DNA from: Giardia muris
Taxonomy: Eukaryota > Fornicata > Diplomonadida > Hexamitidae
Direction: 5' to 3'
Assembly: GCA_006247105.1 (NCBI GenBank)
Contig: CM016925.1
Coordinates: 2,666,001 to 2,730,000, forward strand
Length of the DNA stretch: 64,000 nt
A program made the position numbers and the translations under genes. How positions within the stretch are numbered: position 1 is the first letter of the stretch; each line of letters starts with the position of its first letter. Shown here in pieces: positions 4,927 through 43,527 of this stretch. A model generated the notes under the pieces. The model made no database searches. It had not been told where the DNA came from and saw only the letters and a list, made by a program, of their open reading frames with translations.

Positions 4927-7011
4927 ATGACCGAGACAATCGCACGCGAAGCCGCCTGTACGGGCTTGGGGGAGGCGAGGTTAGGCCCTGCCTCGAAAGA
5001 CCCCGACCTCAGTCCAGAAACGGAGGCGCTTGAGCGCCGTGGACCCGAGAGTTCCAATGCATATCCGGAACTAACCATTTTGACGAACGTTCCCATCGTC
5101 GATCTCAGCGTTCAGGAGGACAAGGATCGACGCGTGCACATCCGAATCCCCGACAGTAAGATCAGCCCCATACGCCCGGTCAGCTGTGATGCGGATGTCG
5201 AACCATTGATCAATTACCTGAATGGGGGTGAGAATTCTGGTACACACGTCTTCGCCTGGTCTCCCGACGACTCGATCTGCTCCACGAGGCTCAGCGGGAA
5301 CGTTGTCGTTTACACCCTCCGAGACTTGGACTCTGGAAGGGTCGAGGGCGGTTTGGGTGGGACCTCCGTCCAGCTATGCGACGCACTCGCATATGGACTA
5401 AGATTTTTGACACGATACTCACTGCTGGAGCTCTGGGTCCTGTACGTCTCTTCTCCTCATGGAACCGTTCCTAGAACTTACTTGACAGCTGTCACCACCC
5501 CTTCGGATCACCGCCTCACTATTCTGCAGCTACAGCTGAAGGGTTCTAGGGTGGCCAATGGCTTGCTCACTCCTACAATCCCGACAAGCTTCTTGAAGGC
5601 CTTAGTAGGGTGCGACTTGGCCTCGGGTAAGAAAGAACCAGGTGCTGAAAAGAGCATTTTGTGGATTACACACCATGCAGTTTTACATCTTCTGAAGATC
5701 ATCGAGGAGTTTAATACGACTCTCAAGGATATGGATTGTAAGACTATTCAAGTTGATGTGAGCCATCTGATACGCGTCGGAGAGGAGCTTTCTGAGGTAT
5801 TGATGGGGTATACACCAACGCAAGGAATGCTGGATGCCTTAGCCGTCCTTGAACGCGGAATAGCTGAAGTTGGCAAGCCCACATCTATTCATACGAAGTG
5901 TGGTCGCATCTCATTCTCCGGGACCACAGAGGATGCTCAGCTTCTTGCGGGTCTTCTTCCAACGCTTTATGACACTTGGCCAGAGGAGTCTCGTATTTTC
6001 TTCATTGGCCATCACCTCCTCTCACTTCTTTGCCTTACCGACAGTGTCGCCACTATGCAAACGGACGTGCTCTTTGGCCTCCTACAAAGGGTGGATAGGA
6101 CGACAACCCAAGGCCAAGGGAAAGGGCGTGTCATTCTAAGCTCTCAGTTACTCCAATCGGACATTTGGCGTGGGATGTACGAGTCCGATACGATGACTCT
6201 AAGCGATGTTAATCACGAAAGACTTGAGGAGGATGCACGACCATGTAGCCAGCCAAAGAGCGATGGAGGAGAACGCTTTGTCGCGGAGCTGGATAGCTTC
6301 GATAATGTGCTTGACCTGATTGAGATCAAGCCTGCGGACTTCGTTGGGACAGCATTGACCAGCTCAAGGTGTTTCCGTGGTCCAAGGACTGGGAGACAGA
6401 AGTTTCTCCTCTCGCAAACCAATGTGGCAGTGGCTCCGGATATGGTGCTAACTCATGCGGAGTCGGACACTCAGGTCTCCATCTCCCAGACGGCGTCAAT
6501 GGAGGAGCGGATGCGAAGGCTTTTAAGTAGCAAGCATATTGATGTCGAGCATCTGACAGAGTTGGGCTCAGCGTCCGAATCCCAGCACTCTCTCGAGGAT
6601 ATGCTGACCTATTCGATCGTCGAGCGGATGAATGCTCATGAGAAGGAGAAGCTACTTCGGACAATAGCCGATAACAAGCGCACGTCACTCGATAGTATTC
6701 GGGAGATGGTTGCTCACACCCTCGAGGAGCTTGATGCGTACTATGCATCCGATAATTTCGTCGAGGATGTCCGGCGGGCAGCGCACGAAATTCCTCCCCA
6801 ATCCGACCTGGCAGCCCTCATTATCGCCACGACGAAGCCGTTGACCGCTCAAGAGGCACTCAAAAGGCCGGCTCCCGAGCCTTTGCCCCGAAACCCTTTC
6901 ACTCAGATAGTTCGGGCGATACGACGTACCTTCAAGCGGCGATCGTTGGCCATTAGCCGCGTCAAGAGCCAGCAGGCTTCGGTGGTCGTGTCCAGAGCCT
7001 TCAACGGGTAA
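4927..7011 (+). CDS. hypothetical protein, 694 residues
   Basis: I do not recognise a family. The first 60 residues are acidic and polar. The middle (about 110-400) alternates hydrophobic strands and helices without repeats and looks like a folded globular region. The C-terminal third has a Ser/Glu-rich helical segment (about 515-620) and a basic tail with several Arg/Lys pairs. There is no signal peptide, no clear membrane segment, no Cys cluster and no nucleotide-binding loop. The first ATG was chosen. It sits 26 bp from the divergent Sds3-like gene, and alternative Met codons downstream are far away. The gene is followed by a 130-bp gap before the end of the eS28 gene on the other strand. 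Confidence 0.7.
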   Translation: MTETIAREAACTGLGEARLGPASKDPDLSPETEALERRGPESSNAYPELTILTNVPIVDLSVQEDKDRRVHIRIPDSKISPIRPVSCDADVEPLINYLNGGENSGTHVFAWSPDDSICSTRLSGNVVVYTLRDLDSGRVEGGLGGTSVQLCDALAYGLRFLTRYSLLELWVLYVSSPHGTVPRTYLTAVTTPSDHRLTILQLQLKGSRVANGLLTPTIPTSFLKALVGCDLASGKKEPGAEKSILWITHHAVLHLLKIIEEFNTTLKDMDCKTIQVDVSHLIRVGEELSEVLMGYTPTQGMLDALAVLERGIAEVGKPTSIHTKCGRISFSGTTEDAQLLAGLLPTLYDTWPEESRIFFIGHHLLSLLCLTDSVATMQTDVLFGLLQRVDRTTTQGQGKGRVILSSQLLQSDIWRGMYESDTMTLSDVNHERLEEDARPCSQPKSDGGERFVAELDSFDNVLDLIEIKPADFVGTALTSSRCFRGPRTGRQKFLLSQTNVAVAPDMVLTHAESDTQVSISQTASMEERMRRLLSSKHIDVEHLTELGSASESQHSLEDMLTYSIVERMNAHEKEKLLRTIADNKRTSLDSIREMVAHTLEELDAYYASDNFVEDVRRAAHEIPPQSDLAALIIATTKPLTAQEALKRPAPEPLPRNPFTQIVRAIRRTFKRRSLAISRVKSQQASVVVSRAFNG

Positions 7012-37343: not shown

Positions 37344-38465
37344 CTACTTCCAGGTGACGAATTCTGTCGCCTCTTGCATTTCCTTGTCGTCAGTAAAGTT
37401 GATATCGCCCATAGAGGATTGAAACGCATCGGCGAAGTTCGGATCACAAGAGAGCGCTCCAATGACTCCAAGGAACCCATCATGTCTAACGAACATGGGT
37501 ATAGCCGATGGGAAATACCATTCCAATGCTTCAGACAAATAACGCTGGGTTAATTGGTAACCTCCAATGAACGACCCTGCGAAGAGTACATGCTCACAAT
37601 GAGCAAGACGTGCATTCAAAGCAGCGATATGTGCGATATTGAAGCAGAGGATTTGTAAGAGAGATGCGATAGCATCTGCTATATGGGCATCATCACGTTC
37701 TCCTTGACACTTTCCCAGTGCTGCGGCCAGCTTCGTCATATTAAGTCCAAGATAATCACTATTGAAAGAGCAGATATCACCAATAAGGATGTCAGCGTTG
37801 GCGGGGACCCCAACGGCCGCAAGTTCCATCGCTTCATGGAATCCAAGCTTTCTTCCCGCTATGATACGTGCTAGTCCCATAAAGGTACCACCTCCAAGGG
37901 CTAATCCATCGACACGCTTCCCAACTCCATGAGAGACGTGAACAAAGGAGATCCCGGTCCCGATTTGAGCTAGAATCAAGTCTGGAAGGACTCCTGAGAA
38001 GGGTGACAAGATCACCTCCTTATCTGAAGTAAGACTAACCGTTGAGAGTTGCTGTTTGAATCCATGTCTAGCCATAAAGCTAAGGCCCTGAACCACCATG
38101 TCAATCTCATGTGGCGTCACCACATTATCGTAGCGTGTACGTGTCGCCAAACGACGAGAAAACTTGTGTGCTCCTCCACCAGTACAACACAAAACCGGAA
38201 TACAACGAGACCTAGGTAAATGGTGATCGGAGATGAAGGAGAGGACGACATCAATAGTCTCCGAGATGGGAGCAGTGAAGAGGAAGATATATCCTTCAAT
38301 GATATGGGAATAGAAGGAAAGAGAGGCGACGAAGTAATCCTGGAAGGCCTTCACCAGGACTGCGGCAGGCCTCGTATTCATGTCCCCCGGGACATAGAGG
38401 GCCATCTTGGCCAAGGAACCACCCAGGTCTAGGGCGATAACAGGTCCATTCGCCATTCGAACCAT
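37344..38465 (-). CDS. type II (eukaryotic-type) pantothenate kinase
   Basis: A protein of 373 residues in the actin-like ATPase fold. Motifs are the phosphate-1 loop [14 protein letters not shown] (11-24), a central CCTGGGAHKF stretch, QIGTGISFVHV, and GLALGGGTFMGLARII with a conserved Gly-rich loop, then LFAGSFIGG near the C-terminus. This is the pattern of the eukaryotic PanK family (also called type II). The enzyme makes 4'-phosphopantothenate, the first step of coenzyme A synthesis, in the cytosol. Two Met codons lie close together (38465 and 38456). With either, the start lies inside the 3' end of the upstream pseudokinase gene on the same strand (37- or 28-bp overlap). Confidence 0.9.
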   Translation of the reverse strand: MVRMANGPVIALDLGGSLAKMALYVPGDMNTRPAAVLVKAFQDYFVASLSFYSHIIEGYIFLFTAPISETIDVVLSFISDHHLPRSRCIPVLCCTGGGAHKFSRRLATRTRYDNVVTPHEIDMVVQGLSFMARHGFKQQLSTVSLTSDKEVILSPFSGVLPDLILAQIGTGISFVHVSHGVGKRVDGLALGGGTFMGLARIIAGRKLGFHEAMELAAVGVPANADILIGDICSFNSDYLGLNMTKLAAALGKCQGERDDAHIADAIASLLQILCFNIAHIAALNARLAHCEHVLFAGSFIGGYQLTQRYLSEALEWYFPSAIPMFVRHDGFLGVIGALSCDPNFADAFQSSMGDINFTDDKEMQEATEFVTWK

Positions 38466-40144
38466 AACGATTTATTGGCCTGAGTTAGTTCTGCATAGAC
38501 TTCTGGCTGCCGTTTCCGGTCAGCAAAGTCAATGGCGCGAAGACCAGCTGGTGTACAGATGTCTTCTTCCATCCCTCGAAGTAGTTTGACGCAGGAAAGA
38601 TGCCCATTCGCTGTAGCAATGATTAATGCCGTCTTCCCTTGAGAGTCTTGCTTTCCAATCTCCCAAGCACAAAGGGCTTCCACAGACTCTCTACACCCGT
38701 GCATTGCGGCGAGCATCAGTGCGGTCTTCCCCTCAACCGTCTGTAATCCATGTTGCTTGGCTGCTAATTGCTTCACAATACTGATATGGTTGTTTAAAGC
38801 GGCACACATGAGAGGAGTAAGGCCCTGTGGTTGTGGGACATCCTTCTCCTCCGGATAGAGTAATGTAACAATGTCCCGATCCCCAATAGTTGCAGCAATG
38901 ATCAACGCTGTTGGAACTTGGACGTGAACGTTTTGGCAATTGTACTTCCCTTTCATTTGCTTCTTCGCCTCATATGGGATGAGGATTTGAACGCCTTCAA
39001 TAAAGTGATGTTCAACGCAAATCATCAAAGCAGTCTTTCCATCATCATCCCACTTACCTGCATAATCTAAGTGTCGAACTAATAGGTCAGCATCACGTGT
39101 ATTTGCGGCGAGGTGCAAGACAGTATTCGACGAATTAAACCGACGATAGATTGAGCGTGGCACACCATGAGAACGTGTCAAGCAAGTTTCTGGCATCTTG
39201 AAGCATGGGGTTGGAGGTGCAGTTGCGACTGGCTTGGGAAGGGCGGGTAATTCAAAAGACCCGGTAGTTGGCGCTTCTATTCCTCGCATCTTTTGAACTC
39301 TATAGATGGCCTCACGAACGATCTGCATTCGAAGAAGCTTATGGAAGGTAAGACGGTCTGCGGAGTTGTATCGTAACATCGAATGCATGAGGTTTCTAAG
39401 GGTAAGTGAATACTGTGGTGGGATGACTAGGGATGGGCTTTGACGTGGAGGAACGATTTCGATTTCTGTTATCTGATACAGTGGTGGTACTTCCAATGTA
39501 CACATCGAATACACTACACAGCCAAAGGAGAACATGGCCGAGGCTGGCATGACTTTTCCACCACGAAAGACTTCTGGTGCGACGTAGTTCACGTCTTCTG
39601 GAGAAACCAGGTGTGGTGGGAAGTCTTTGGTCACAGGCTTATATAGGCCGAAGTCTCCGACACGAATCGTTCCATCTCGATGTAAGAAGATATTACGTGG
39701 GTTGAAGAATCTATATGCGAAGAATTGTGGATATAGCTTCTCACGACCAATGGTATCTATGCAGTGGCAGAAGACTTCGGAAAGCTGTGCTATTCGTTCC
39801 CATACCACCGGCTCATTGAGATAGTCCCTGATGGCCAACCGGTCTTCTAAATCCTTAGCAAGTGAACCAAGATCGCAATATTCAGTATATGCATATAAGT
39901 GGTTTGGAAAGGCGTGCAACTGGAACTGATAGTACTGAAGGAGGTTGTGATGCTTCAATCGTTCTAGTATCTCCGGAAGCGCATCCACCAATTTCAATTC
40001 CTCAGGTGTCAATCCTTGCGGATAGATATCACGTAGCACAAAGACGAGCGGGTTTGGTCGCTTGGTCACTAGAGAGACACACCCGAAGGTCGTACGCCGT
40101 AACAGCTGGACAAGAGTCAATGTCGGAGGTAGATGTGGTTCCAT
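38429..40144 (-). CDS. NEK-like pseudokinase with ankyrin repeats
   Basis: A protein of 571 residues. The kinase-like domain (about 10-290) keeps DFG (Asp164) and an APE motif (NYVAPEVF), but HRD reads YRF (144-146), so the catalytic Asp is lost. The beta-3 Lys is probably Arg38 (VLRDI). Catalysis is therefore unlikely. From about residue 345 there are at least six ankyrin repeats with GKTALM and [24 protein letters not shown] cores. NEK-like pseudokinases with ankyrin tails are a known expanded group in Giardia, thought to act as scaffolds in the cytoskeleton and cell cycle. The start is the ATG at 40144, 31 bp from the hspN ATG. A longer open frame upstream runs through the HSP90 region and lacks an initiator. 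The 3' end overlaps the pantothenate kinase start. Confidence 0.85.
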
Positions 40145-40175
40145 TGATCGGAAAATTGATGCGTTGATGAGAAAA
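40145..40175. promoter_or_regulatory. 31-bp bidirectional start region, pseudokinase/hspN
   Basis: The segment between two divergent ATG codons has A/T-rich parts gaaaattgat and gagaaaa. The latter directly precedes the hspN ATG and looks like its initiator. Inferred from position and composition. Confidence 0.5.
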
Positions 40176-41200
40176 ATGCCAAGCGAGACCTTTGAGTTCC
40201 AGGCCGAGATCTCCCAGCTGATGAACCTCATCATCAACACGTTCTACTCCTCGAAGGAGATCTTCCTTCGTGAGCTGATCTCGAACGCGTCCGACGCCCT
40301 CGACAAGCTCCACTTCACCTCCCTCACGAACCCCGCCATCCTTGGCGAGGAGAAGGAGCTCAGGATCGATGTCATCCCTCAGGAAGCGAACAACCTCCTC
40401 GTCATCCGTGACACCGGGATTGGGATGACCAAGGCCGACCTCATCAATTGCCTTGGTACGATCGCTAAGTCTGGGGCGAAGCAGTTCATGGAGATGATCT
40501 CTGAGGGCGCCGACGTCTCCCTCATCGGCCAGTTCGGTGTCGGCTTCTACTCCGCATACCTCGTCGCCGAGAAGGTCGAAGTCATCACGAAGCACAACGA
40601 TGACAAGTGCTACAAGTGGTCTTCGACGGCCGGTGGGACGTTCCAGATCGAGGACTGTGACGTTGGAGCCTCTGGGAAGCCGATCCTTCGCGGTACGGAG
40701 ATCGTCCTTCACCTCAAGGAAGACCAGAAGGAGTATCTGAAGGCTGACCGCCTCGAGGAGCTCATCAAGCGCCACTCGATGTTCATCGGGTATCCGATCT
40801 ATATCCACAAGGTCAAGGAGGAAGAGGTTGAGGTCGAGGATGAGGAGAAGAAGGAAGAGACCGAGGAGAAGAAGGAGGACGAGGTACAAGAGGCCTCCGA
40901 CGACGAGAACAAGGAGAAGACGAAGAAGACCATCAAGAAGGAGGTCGAGGTCGAGGAGCAGGTCAACAAGCAGCCTGCGATCTGGACTCGTGACCCGAAG
41001 GACGTTACCGAGGACGAGTACAAGGAGTTCTACAAGCAGATTAACCCCTCGGACTACGAGAGTTACCTTGCGGTCACTCACTTCCGCGTCGACGGTGCCG
41101 CCCAATTCCGTGGCATTCTATTCGTTCCCAAGCGTGCCCCCTTCGATATGTGGGACGCCCAGAAGAAGAAGACCGGGATCAAGCTCATGGTCAAGAAGGT
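40176..41200 (+). CDS. HSP90: HSP90 N-terminal half (hspN exon of a trans-spliced gene)
   Basis: A frame of 341 codons plus 2 bases (GT) that ends exactly at a GTATGT donor. It starts [19 protein letters not shown], then [49 protein letters not shown] and the charged acidic linker (about 220-270), then [18 protein letters not shown] and [13 protein letters not shown]. This covers the ATPase domain and the start of the middle domain of cytosolic HSP90. The rest (middle and C-terminal dimer domains) is missing, and no matching sequence is found in this window. In Giardia intestinalis HSP90 is known to be made by trans-splicing of separate hspN and hspC transcripts. The split codon GT|N encodes Val at KKV, matching the expected junction. 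Read through without splicing, the frame would add 34 unrelated residues. The start at 40176 follows gagaaaa. Confidence 0.95.
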
Positions 41201-41206
41201 GTATGT
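41201..41206 (+). other. 5' splice donor of the hspN half-intron
   Basis: GTATGT follows the last coding bases (AAGAAGGT) and fits the Giardia donor consensus. It splits the Val codon after two bases. A second in-frame choice, GTGTAT two bases earlier, is weaker. A GU-rich segment follows to the processing motif, without an acceptor on this strand. Confidence 0.85.
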
Positions 41207-41236
41207 GTGTGCGTCAGCCGCTGTGTGTTGTGTGTT

Positions 41237-41248
41237 TCCTTTACTTAA
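41237..41248 (+). other. RNA-processing motif TCCTTTACTTAA downstream of hspN
   Basis: A 12-base match differing by one base (T for C) from TCCTTTACTCAA, the motif that marks 3' processing of Giardia non-coding RNAs and trans-spliced half-introns. It begins 30 bases after the donor hexamer. Its last four bases overlap the stop codon of the convergent beta-helix gene (41245-41247). Confidence 0.85.
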
Positions 41249-43527
41249 ATGGTTCCTATTATTGTTTCGGCCTCACGCTGGGAGCTGTCAAGTTCCGTGA
41301 ACGGGATAAGGCGGACGAAAGTCTTATAGTCCAGCATAGGTGTTATCCAGTTGTTTTCCATCAAGTGTTCACGGAGCTGGGTGGTTGGGGCCGAGCTTTG
41401 GAAAATCACTGGGTCTCGAGCTGCTCGTCGTTTTGGCACTTCGATACGGTTGTGCTGTATCAAAAGAGACGAGACGGTATTAGCGGCCTCCACGAGGGTG
41501 AGACACGTGCCATTGGAGGCATGGAACTCGCATTTTGAGATGGTGACGGCTTTCTGTTTGTTTGGGTCGGATGAGGAACTATTATGGGCATCAAGTTCCG
41601 GGCCTGGGGAAGGAGACGGATGAAGAGATACACATGGGTTCGAGATGAGGAGAGCACAAAGAAGGTTAGCTTCATACCGGCATTGATGGACGAGGTTAGG
41701 GTAACGCAAGGTATGAAGCCAGATTCCGATGGTATTGTTGGAAAGAGTGGTATTAGTGATCTGAGAGCTGGTGGTATTGTCAAGAAGAGCTAGGCCAATA
41801 CAGCAGCTCTGGATGAAGGACTCTGTAATTGCGACGCTTCCTTGAGTGCAAAGAACCCCTGTGATTGAATTGCAGATGTAAGTATCGGTAATGGTGACGC
41901 TTCCGTTGTTATTGATGACGATCAACGCGCTTTGACGTAAGCCTTCGGAGTACGTGGCAAGAGACTTCGGAATGAATTGTATTCGTTCGTGAATAACTCC
42001 CGATAGATCTTCATAAGGTTTCGTCGTTAAAGCACGTTCGGAAATGGGTATTTCACGTACGGCTGCAAGAGGCTTGATGATTGGGGACGATCTACAACTC
42101 CCAAACGCCGTGAGTGAGTCGGGGATCCGTGGATTCAATGAGGTGATATATGACTTATAGAGGCATACCTGGGATCTATCCGTTATGATCAATGGAGAGT
42201 TTGGGCCGAAGTATTGATAATTCCCAGTCTTCTCGAGCTTAAGTGGGACACCATACCTCGAAAGAATCAAACACTTATTGAAAATAATGTTTTTAGCTCT
42301 TTTGGCAACAACAACCGCTGGCTGACAAGGCCCGAGCTTAAGGATATCGATTTCTGGCGAGAGGCTCAGTAGCGCTAAGTCAGCGGAGTTGACTCCAGCA
42401 CTCTCACTTGTACGCCCACGGCTTACGGTAGGTAAGATTTGTGTTGGGAATGGGCTTTCAAAGATGCAATCGATGAGGTTTGTATTGGATCCAAGGACAT
42501 AAATGGTACCTATGACATACAGTCCAGTAAGACAGCAATTGCTTTGTGCATAAATCGTCCCTTTGATGACCGTGGCGGTCTTACTATAGACCTCAATGTT
42601 CCGTTCAAGATCGGAGTTTGTGAGGGTCCTATATGCACTAGTGAAATGCCCGGTATGCCAGTTCTTGGTCGAAATAGCACCAATAAGAGTTGTATGTGAA
42701 GGAATTAGAAGTGGTTCGTCAAGCTCATGGACTCCAACTGAAAGGCTATATACGGGGTATCTGTTGCATTCCGCCTCCGTGACGGCTTGAAGAGCAGATT
42801 GATCGAGCTTTGTTTCACGTGGATCCAAAGGTAAAGGTGTTTGCTTCACGAACGCCAATGGATCATTGTATGGACTAGTTGGAATGTGTACCTCCGCACT
42901 TTCCGCGGAAAAGCTTGCCGACTTTGCAATAGGTTTCTTTATAATCCCATTACTGTAACCCCTATTCAATGCAAGAGTAAGATCTCGTATAGTCCTTACC
43001 AATCGAATGTTCCCAATAAGCGATAAAGCAGTTGAGATGTTCATTGGACCTTCGGCGGCAGAATGCTGAAGTGCCATTGCGATGATTGCTTCCTTATTTC
43101 GAACCCAAGAATCGACGGTGAGGAAGTTATCTTCCGTTACTCGTTCCAGCTTCGAAACCTCTTGTGCCAGGACGGTCTCAGTGATACGTACTTCATCATT
43201 TAAGACTGGACTATTTCTACGGTTTCCAATCGTTCCAATTTCAGTACCAATACCAGGACGCGTACTTAGAATTGCGTTCTCGCATGTGGTAGCCGTATCG
43301 ACATACTTCGATAGTAGTAAAGAGATATGGTGGTCATAAGAGGAGGGAGATCTAAGATGCTCATTAATGATGCAATCCGGACAACGTCGACCAACCTTAT
43401 CAGTCAACCTAATAGTTTCGGTACAAACGGGACAAGAGACTTGACGGGACGATGATGTTGGGACGCTCTTACCACAGCGAATGCAGACGAAGCCCTTAGG
43501 AGAAACGGGAACGACCAGACTAGTCAT
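41245..43527 (-). CDS. parallel beta-helix protein with N-terminal zinc-binding motifs
   Basis: A protein of 760 residues. The first 55 residues contain three CxxC-type pairs (CIRCGKS, CPVC, CPDC), probably one or two zinc sites. From about 265 to 720 there is a repeated strand pattern with many Asn/Thr/Ser/Cys turns: [86 protein letters not shown]. This is typical of right-handed parallel beta-helices, as in pectate-lyase-like and F-box FBXO11-type domains. No catalytic set is obvious, so a binding role is likely. No signal peptide. Its stop overlaps the hspN processing motif. Confidence 0.75.

Follow-up and report, generated by a model that had tools for sequence, protein, structure and literature searches.

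In the genome of Giardia muris, an HSP90 N-terminal half-gene was found at 40176-41248 of the window, which denotes the whole stretch of 64,000 nucleotides analysed (C1:2666001-2730000). With high confidence, the locus is read as an hspN trans-splicing donor half-gene and as one of two identical copies in the genome. The duplicated unit begins shortly upstream of the start codon and ends at the cleavage motif. HSP90 trans-splicing in Giardia is already known, and so is that of the four Giardia genes in G. muris, for which Xu et al. (2020, PMC7641422) described each of the four homologues along with the motif. The searches covered 9,737,486 bases in 52 contigs. Donors and acceptors were sought with Pfam domains and exact pattern searches, so diverged copies could be missed. 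The features of the window were as follows.

38429..40144, minus strand: protein kinase-ankyrin gene, 571 aa, divergent, upstream of hspN
40172..41248, plus strand: duplicated donor unit, equal to C4:1046978-1048054(-) except at base 41246
40176..41200, plus strand: hspN exon, 341 codons and the GT of a split Val codon
41201..41248, plus strand: 5' half of the predicted trans-spliced intron
41201..41206, plus strand: 5' splice site GTATGT, directly after the coding exon
41211..41223, plus strand: guide GCGTCAGCCGCTG, perfectly complementary to the intron half of hspC (C3)
41224..41235, plus strand: GU element TGTGTTGTGTGT, shared by four distinct donors
41237..41248, plus strand: processing motif TCCTTTACTTAA; the C4 copy has the canonical TCCTTTACTCAA
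41240..41245, minus strand: AGTAAA (TTTACT on the plus strand), which may be the poly(A) signal of the convergent gene
41245..43527, minus strand: convergent gene, 760 aa, without a known family, the TAA stop of which (41245-41247) is within the motif

The hspN exon (1025 nt) starts with ATG at 40176 and its 3' end reads AAG AAG GT at 41200. In Pfam, it matched HATPase domains and positions 1-161 of the 518 in the HSP90 profile. An earlier note, made from the letters of the window alone, had described an HSP90 frame that breaks off in the middle domain at a split Val codon followed by GTATGT, and this was borne out (40176-41200 and 41201-41206). A six-frame search of the genome with PF00183 returned three places: the two N halves, in the window and at C4:1047016-1047495 (both profile 1-165), and C3:1115751-1116770 (profile 161-499). 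Since these were the only places, the C-terminal HSP90 exon is absent from both strands of the window, as had been claimed. The assembly also yielded no full-length HSP90 and no C-terminal HSP90 match beside either N half, so that neither of the two conditions named in the note for refuting its reading was encountered there. The opposing gene that the note had placed directly downstream is the 760-aa frame at 41245..43527 (-), for which a protein search matched only the protein itself and no Pfam family was assigned.

The second half, expected elsewhere in the genome, was located on C3 (from C3:1115751 on). The hspC exon is preceded there by a fused branch point/3' splice site, CTAACACGCAG, and matched HSP90 positions 163-499 of 518. 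When GT was joined in silico to CTTCATC, the reading frame was restored and a continuous 699-aa HSP90 was obtained (junction V342-F343), in which the N-terminal ATPase, middle and C-terminal domains of a cytosolic HSP90 were all present according to Pfam on both halves. Three unsplit relatives from public assemblies (P0002, P0003, and P0005) had no gap at the junction, where KKV is followed by FITDECTDIVPEW (FITEE in P0003). Another protein from a public assembly, P0004, was hspN-like (82% identical over 76% of the query). It leaves HSP90 at the same residue as hspN, after which its frame continues as LLYSN, the translation expected of CTCCTTTACTCAAC, and so seems to encode the canonical motif; its sequence thus points to the same HSP90 split in another Giardia.

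After the exon end, GTATGTGTGT, GCGTCAGCCGCTG, TGTGTTGTGTGTT, and TCCTTTACTTAA follow in this order, finishing at 41248. The GU-rich stretch and, after it, a sequence one base off the Giardia processing motif had both been noticed before and were recovered here (41224-41235 and 41237-41248). TCCTTTACTTAA differs from TCCTTTACTCAA by one base, a T at position 10, which is within the published consensus, where C, T or A is given as permitted (PMC3510501), and is also found in the single-copy DHCB exon 2 (DHCB2) donor of the G. muris genome. The motif is located 36 nt after the 5' splice site, inside the spacing of about 17-93 nt reported for donor motifs (PMC5224939). The upstream sequence of hspC, when aligned with 41201-41248 as the note had proposed, carried in addition to CTAACACGCAG a 13-nt stretch of the 3' intron half that is perfectly complementary to the guide at 41211-41223, extending to 16 nt with G-U pairs. 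Taken together, CTAACACGCAG, the guide complementarity, and the in-silico join support the central claim of the note, an HSP90 half-gene laid out for trans-splicing as in Giardia intestinalis.

Five distinct donors were recognised in the genome: hspN (2 copies), DHCB exon 1 (DHCB1; 2 copies), DHCB2, DHCG, and a provisional p68. The names DHCB, DHCG, and p68 were borrowed from the G. lamblia literature (PMC5224939); the Pfam domains found here were those of dynein heavy chains and DEAD helicases. Three further donors had a layout like that of hspN, and their dynein domains were split as expected, being cut at the joins (MT 1-260 then 264-340; AAA_6 1-161 then 165-327). The donors present in one copy were the following.

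C5:565051: DHCB exon 2 donor
C2:908532 (L048 about 5000-5062): DHCG donor with an AT-type 5' splice site, ATATGT
C2:1999448 (L051 2949): p68 donor, provisional, with GTATGG 13 nt before TCCTTCACTCAA

The DHCG donor was predicted to pair with the acceptor at C3:432595. At the p68 candidate, the helicase frame is open past the donor site and the pairing with the acceptor at C2:1926592 is short. CTAACACGCAG occurred at seven places, five of which were read as trans acceptors (C2:1926592, for p68, provisionally), while two look cis-spliced. Among these exact matches, no duplicated acceptor was found, and no two of the seven sites had common surroundings. The pattern CTRACRCRCAG gave 22 sites vs 10 in the control; those looked at were the nine CTAAC sites and, among the 13 CTGAC sites, the one located in the intron half of hspC. 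Inside a long open frame at C1:1590480 (-) (L038), GTATGT...CTAACACGCAG may delimit a cis intron of very small size, about 28 nt.

Duplexes were predicted for the five donors with seven acceptor regions, and the cognate acceptor was the strongest for four of the five donors. For hspN and hspC, the predicted energy was -36.6 kcal/mol, the next of the seven regions being at -29.6, and the z score against the shuffled acceptor was -3.4. The cognate values were -38.0 for DHCB2, -33.0 for DHCG, and -15.7 for the p68 candidate; DHCB1 was the exception (-24.7 with its cognate vs -26.8 with another acceptor).

Genome-wide pattern counts were compared with reversed-pattern controls. GTATGT with the motif 18-48 nt later was found at eight sites vs one in the control; five of the eight are trans-splicing donors and three lie inside frames of 527-749 aa. 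The GU pattern, TGTGTTGTG followed by CMTTY within 14 nt, was found six times vs two. The six sites (window 41224-41235; C2:908532; C5:565073; C1:1956488; C1:2029186; C4:1046984) represent four distinct donors, two of them in two copies, and the element is common to four of the five donors. The motif 12-mer by itself was not enriched (7 vs 7) and was dropped as evidence; its seven sites, with HAA at the end, were four donor copies, two in other long frames, and one outside frames of at least 80 aa. At C1:2077341 (L013 3001, reverse strand), TCCTTTACTCAA occurs exactly without being part of any frame of at least 80 aa; this site may be the end of a non-coding RNA gene. Rfam at gathering thresholds gave no matches on the window, L013, L005, or L004.

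The second hspN copy was found by DNA search on C4. The two copies are identical over 1074 nt (40172-41245). This stretch starts 4 nt upstream of the ATG, takes in the intron half and ends inside the processing motif. Over 40172-41248, 1076 of 1077 bases are identical, and the sole difference is base 41246 at motif position 10 (T in the window, C in C4). Outside the unit, the sequences of the window and C4 are unrelated. In an independently built protein database, the 342-aa hspN protein is likewise listed on two contigs. The C4 copy is located downstream of a hexapeptide-repeat gene (eIF2B-epsilon match below the Pfam cut-off) and faces a convergent 509-aa frame without a Pfam family.

The DHCB1 donor, a dynein heavy-chain exon, is duplicated as a block of 8764 bp (C1:1947749-1956512 vs C1:2020447-2029210; L031/L011, L033/L012) with four mismatches, none of them in the dynein exon. 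The block also carries a NOP9/PUF-repeat gene on the other strand, the stop of which forms the left edge of the block, and because of this second gene the block is regarded as a DNA-level copy. On the right, the block ends with the final base of the processing motif. Two of the five donors (hspN and DHCB1) are thus duplicated, in both cases with the right edge at the motif. Preferential duplication of donors over acceptors was considered and discarded as not significant (two of nine pieces, both first exons; about 0.17).

As both hspN copies have the same splice site and guide, both donors could feed the single acceptor hspC. The identity of the two copies over all sites shows no sign of selection on either, so one of them could also be silent. 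That C4 alone is used and the window copy is a spare, either silent or cleaved poorly, seems rather doubtful, though it has some plausibility: position 10 of the motif is T in the window and C in C4, and TCCTTTACTCAA is cited for all trans-spliced genes in the 2020 paper (PMC7641422), whereas the G. lamblia consensus permits T (PMC3510501), the single-copy DHCB2 donor has it as well, and the splice site, guide, and frame of the window copy are intact. An assembly artefact, i.e. a single hspN with one of the contexts a misjoin, is highly improbable. An identical 1.1-kb repeat is a classic place for a misjoin, but four different flanks on contigs of 2.8 and 1.3 Mb were seen, and the published assembly, if it is the same one, was made of PacBio reads corrected with Illumina (PMC7641422). 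Gene fission, in which each half would yield its own protein, is scarcely credible: the N-half frame does stay open beyond the motif, up to 41300, but both splice signals, the guide duplex, and a junction that restores conserved residues stand against it. With the frame open in this way, an hspN RNA that was processed and not spliced would lack an in-frame stop codon, which speaks against a stand-alone N-half protein.

The anatomy, the in-silico join, the complementarity, and the duplication with its edges were observed directly. The operation of the donor half-gene was modelled by analogy with experiments in G. lamblia, where 3' RACE at the motif (PMC3510501) and split reads for five introns (PMC5224939) have been reported. 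Transcription of hspN in G. muris would start in the A-run at the ATG, and the RNA would be cleaved at TCCTTTACTTAA. The 13-nt guide would then pair with its complement in the intron half of hspC, of which C3 supplies the only transcript, and the spliceosome would join ..GT to CTTC.., giving V342-F343 and the 699-aa HSP90.

As described for HspN/HspC of G. lamblia/intestinalis (PMC8494341, PMC3510501), HSP90 of G. muris is split in the middle domain with the halves far apart, and it has GT-AG signals, complementary intron halves, and a motif after the 5' splice site. In G. lamblia, the two ORFs are reported to lie 777 kb apart on one chromosome, whereas the G. muris halves are on different large contigs. 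Downstream of G. lamblia HspN, the same-strand gene for replication factor C subunit 5 is described as transcribed with hspN (PMC3510501); in contrast, hspN of G. muris is present twice, each copy facing a convergent frame. Like the 12-nt Giardia ncRNA processing motif (Hudson et al. 2012, PMC3510501), the window motif ends the intron 5' half and fits the consensus. Unlike that motif as presented there, the G. muris motif forms the right edge of two duplications, and its antisense strand contains both the stop of the convergent frames and their putative poly(A) signal. The available text of the 2020 account of G. muris (PMC7641422) does not name a copy number; the window copy has TTAA. In the literature searched, no report was found of a duplicated hspN, of duplicated donor halves with a common right edge at the motif, or of the shared GU element, and the supplement of the 2020 account (Fig. 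S4) may show the copies.

The two duplications bear on how split genes originate and persist in Giardia: both finish at the cleavage motif and so point to the end of a donor half-gene without bench work. With two donors and one acceptor for an abundant chaperone, the locus would offer a dosage test of whether donor RNA is limiting in trans-splicing, and the two hspN genes can be separated in uncleaved RNA by their one-base difference and their different flanks.

The poly(A) signal in G. lamblia is reported as AGURAA (PMC9014877). At both hspN copies, AGTAAA and the stop codon of the convergent frame are found on the antisense strand of the motif (window 41240-41247 (-); L005 1984-1986 (+)). 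The frames end as GAG TAA AGG in C4, ATT TAA GTAAAGG in the window, TGA GTAAAGG in copy B of DHCB1, and AAG TGA AGG in DHCB2. A long convergent frame stops inside the motif in four of the six copies of the four GU-bearing donors; copy A of DHCB1 has no opposing frame of at least 100 aa at the motif, and at DHCG an opposing 244-aa frame continues through it. The antisense of the motif may act as the 3'-end signal of the convergent neighbour. That AGTAAA falls within the motif on the antisense strand suggests one 3'-end element serving both directions, in a genome that is very compact. A paper on sense-antisense overlap (PMC6545626) was without mention of trans-splicing, hsp90 or heat shock, G. 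muris, or convergent or tail-to-tail genes.

As to the origin of the second hspN copy, we lean slightly towards a DNA-level copy with edges at gene-edge signals (the A-run at the start and TTTACT/AGTAAA at the end), the pair perhaps being kept identical by gene conversion. Given the DHCB1 block, the gene-edge breaks of some other duplicates, and flanks in which neither a tail nor a target repeat could be seen, a DNA-level copy with breaks at short shared signals is at least as likely as a copy from cleaved RNA. The C4 copy is tentatively preferred as the parent because the canonical motif is there and the window copy adjoins the kinase-ankyrin gene; kinase and ankyrin families have been linked to rearrangement in G. 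muris (PMC7641422). Synteny was tried for choosing the parent copy and set aside, the two Rep_fac_C matches (C2; C1:2514230) being near neither hspN copy.

Possible, if not favoured, is an old duplication kept identical by gene conversion, the flanks of which diverged or were rearranged long ago. Other duplicates of the genome are also nearly identical, for example tubulin copies with one mismatch in 1533 and two histone-fold pairs (3 mismatches in 3495; 2 in 3265), and gene conversion has been proposed for the VSP genes of G. muris (PMC7641422), but the hspN edges are sharp, with no zone of decaying similarity. It is unlikely that the window copy was reverse-transcribed from the cleaved 5'-half RNA of the C4 gene, its edges being those of the RNA. 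The left edge 4 nt before the ATG and the right edge inside the cleavage motif would agree with this, as would the cleaved 3' ends reported in G. lamblia, which fall in the motif or a few nt 5' to it (PMC3510501). Against it, the other duplicated donor, DHCB1, is a DNA-level 8764-bp block that includes a second gene on the other strand; no added A-tail or target-site repeat was seen by eye in the flanks of the copies; G. muris has been described as having very few retrotransposons; and in the window copy the last shared base is followed by TAA, which completes a valid motif.

A wider and speculative proposal, to which we give little weight, is that the motif bounds a copyable unit. Donor half-genes would be duplicated as complete cassettes, from the start A-run to the cleavage motif and for hspN possibly via cleaved RNA, so that several donors feed one acceptor, and at the new site the antisense motif would provide the stop codon and poly(A) signal of the convergent neighbour.

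Control duplicates had mixed edges. In one histone-fold pair on C5 (L027 1404-1852 / L028 1392-1840; 449 bp, no mismatch), the right break is inside the stop codon, AGT/RA (AGT/GAG vs AGT/AAA), and the left break is 67 nt before the ATG. In the tubulin pair L017/L019, the left break is 9 nt upstream of the ATG and the shared stretch continues for 180 bp beyond the stop; the pair L020/L021 breaks about 9 nt before the ATG and has a second similar block (97.4%) beyond the stop. Gene-edge breaks are thus common, though not universal, among the control duplicates, and hspN is not unique in having them. A DEAD-helicase pair extends 401 bp past the stop, and the other tubulin copies and two further histone-fold pairs lie within longer duplicated blocks.
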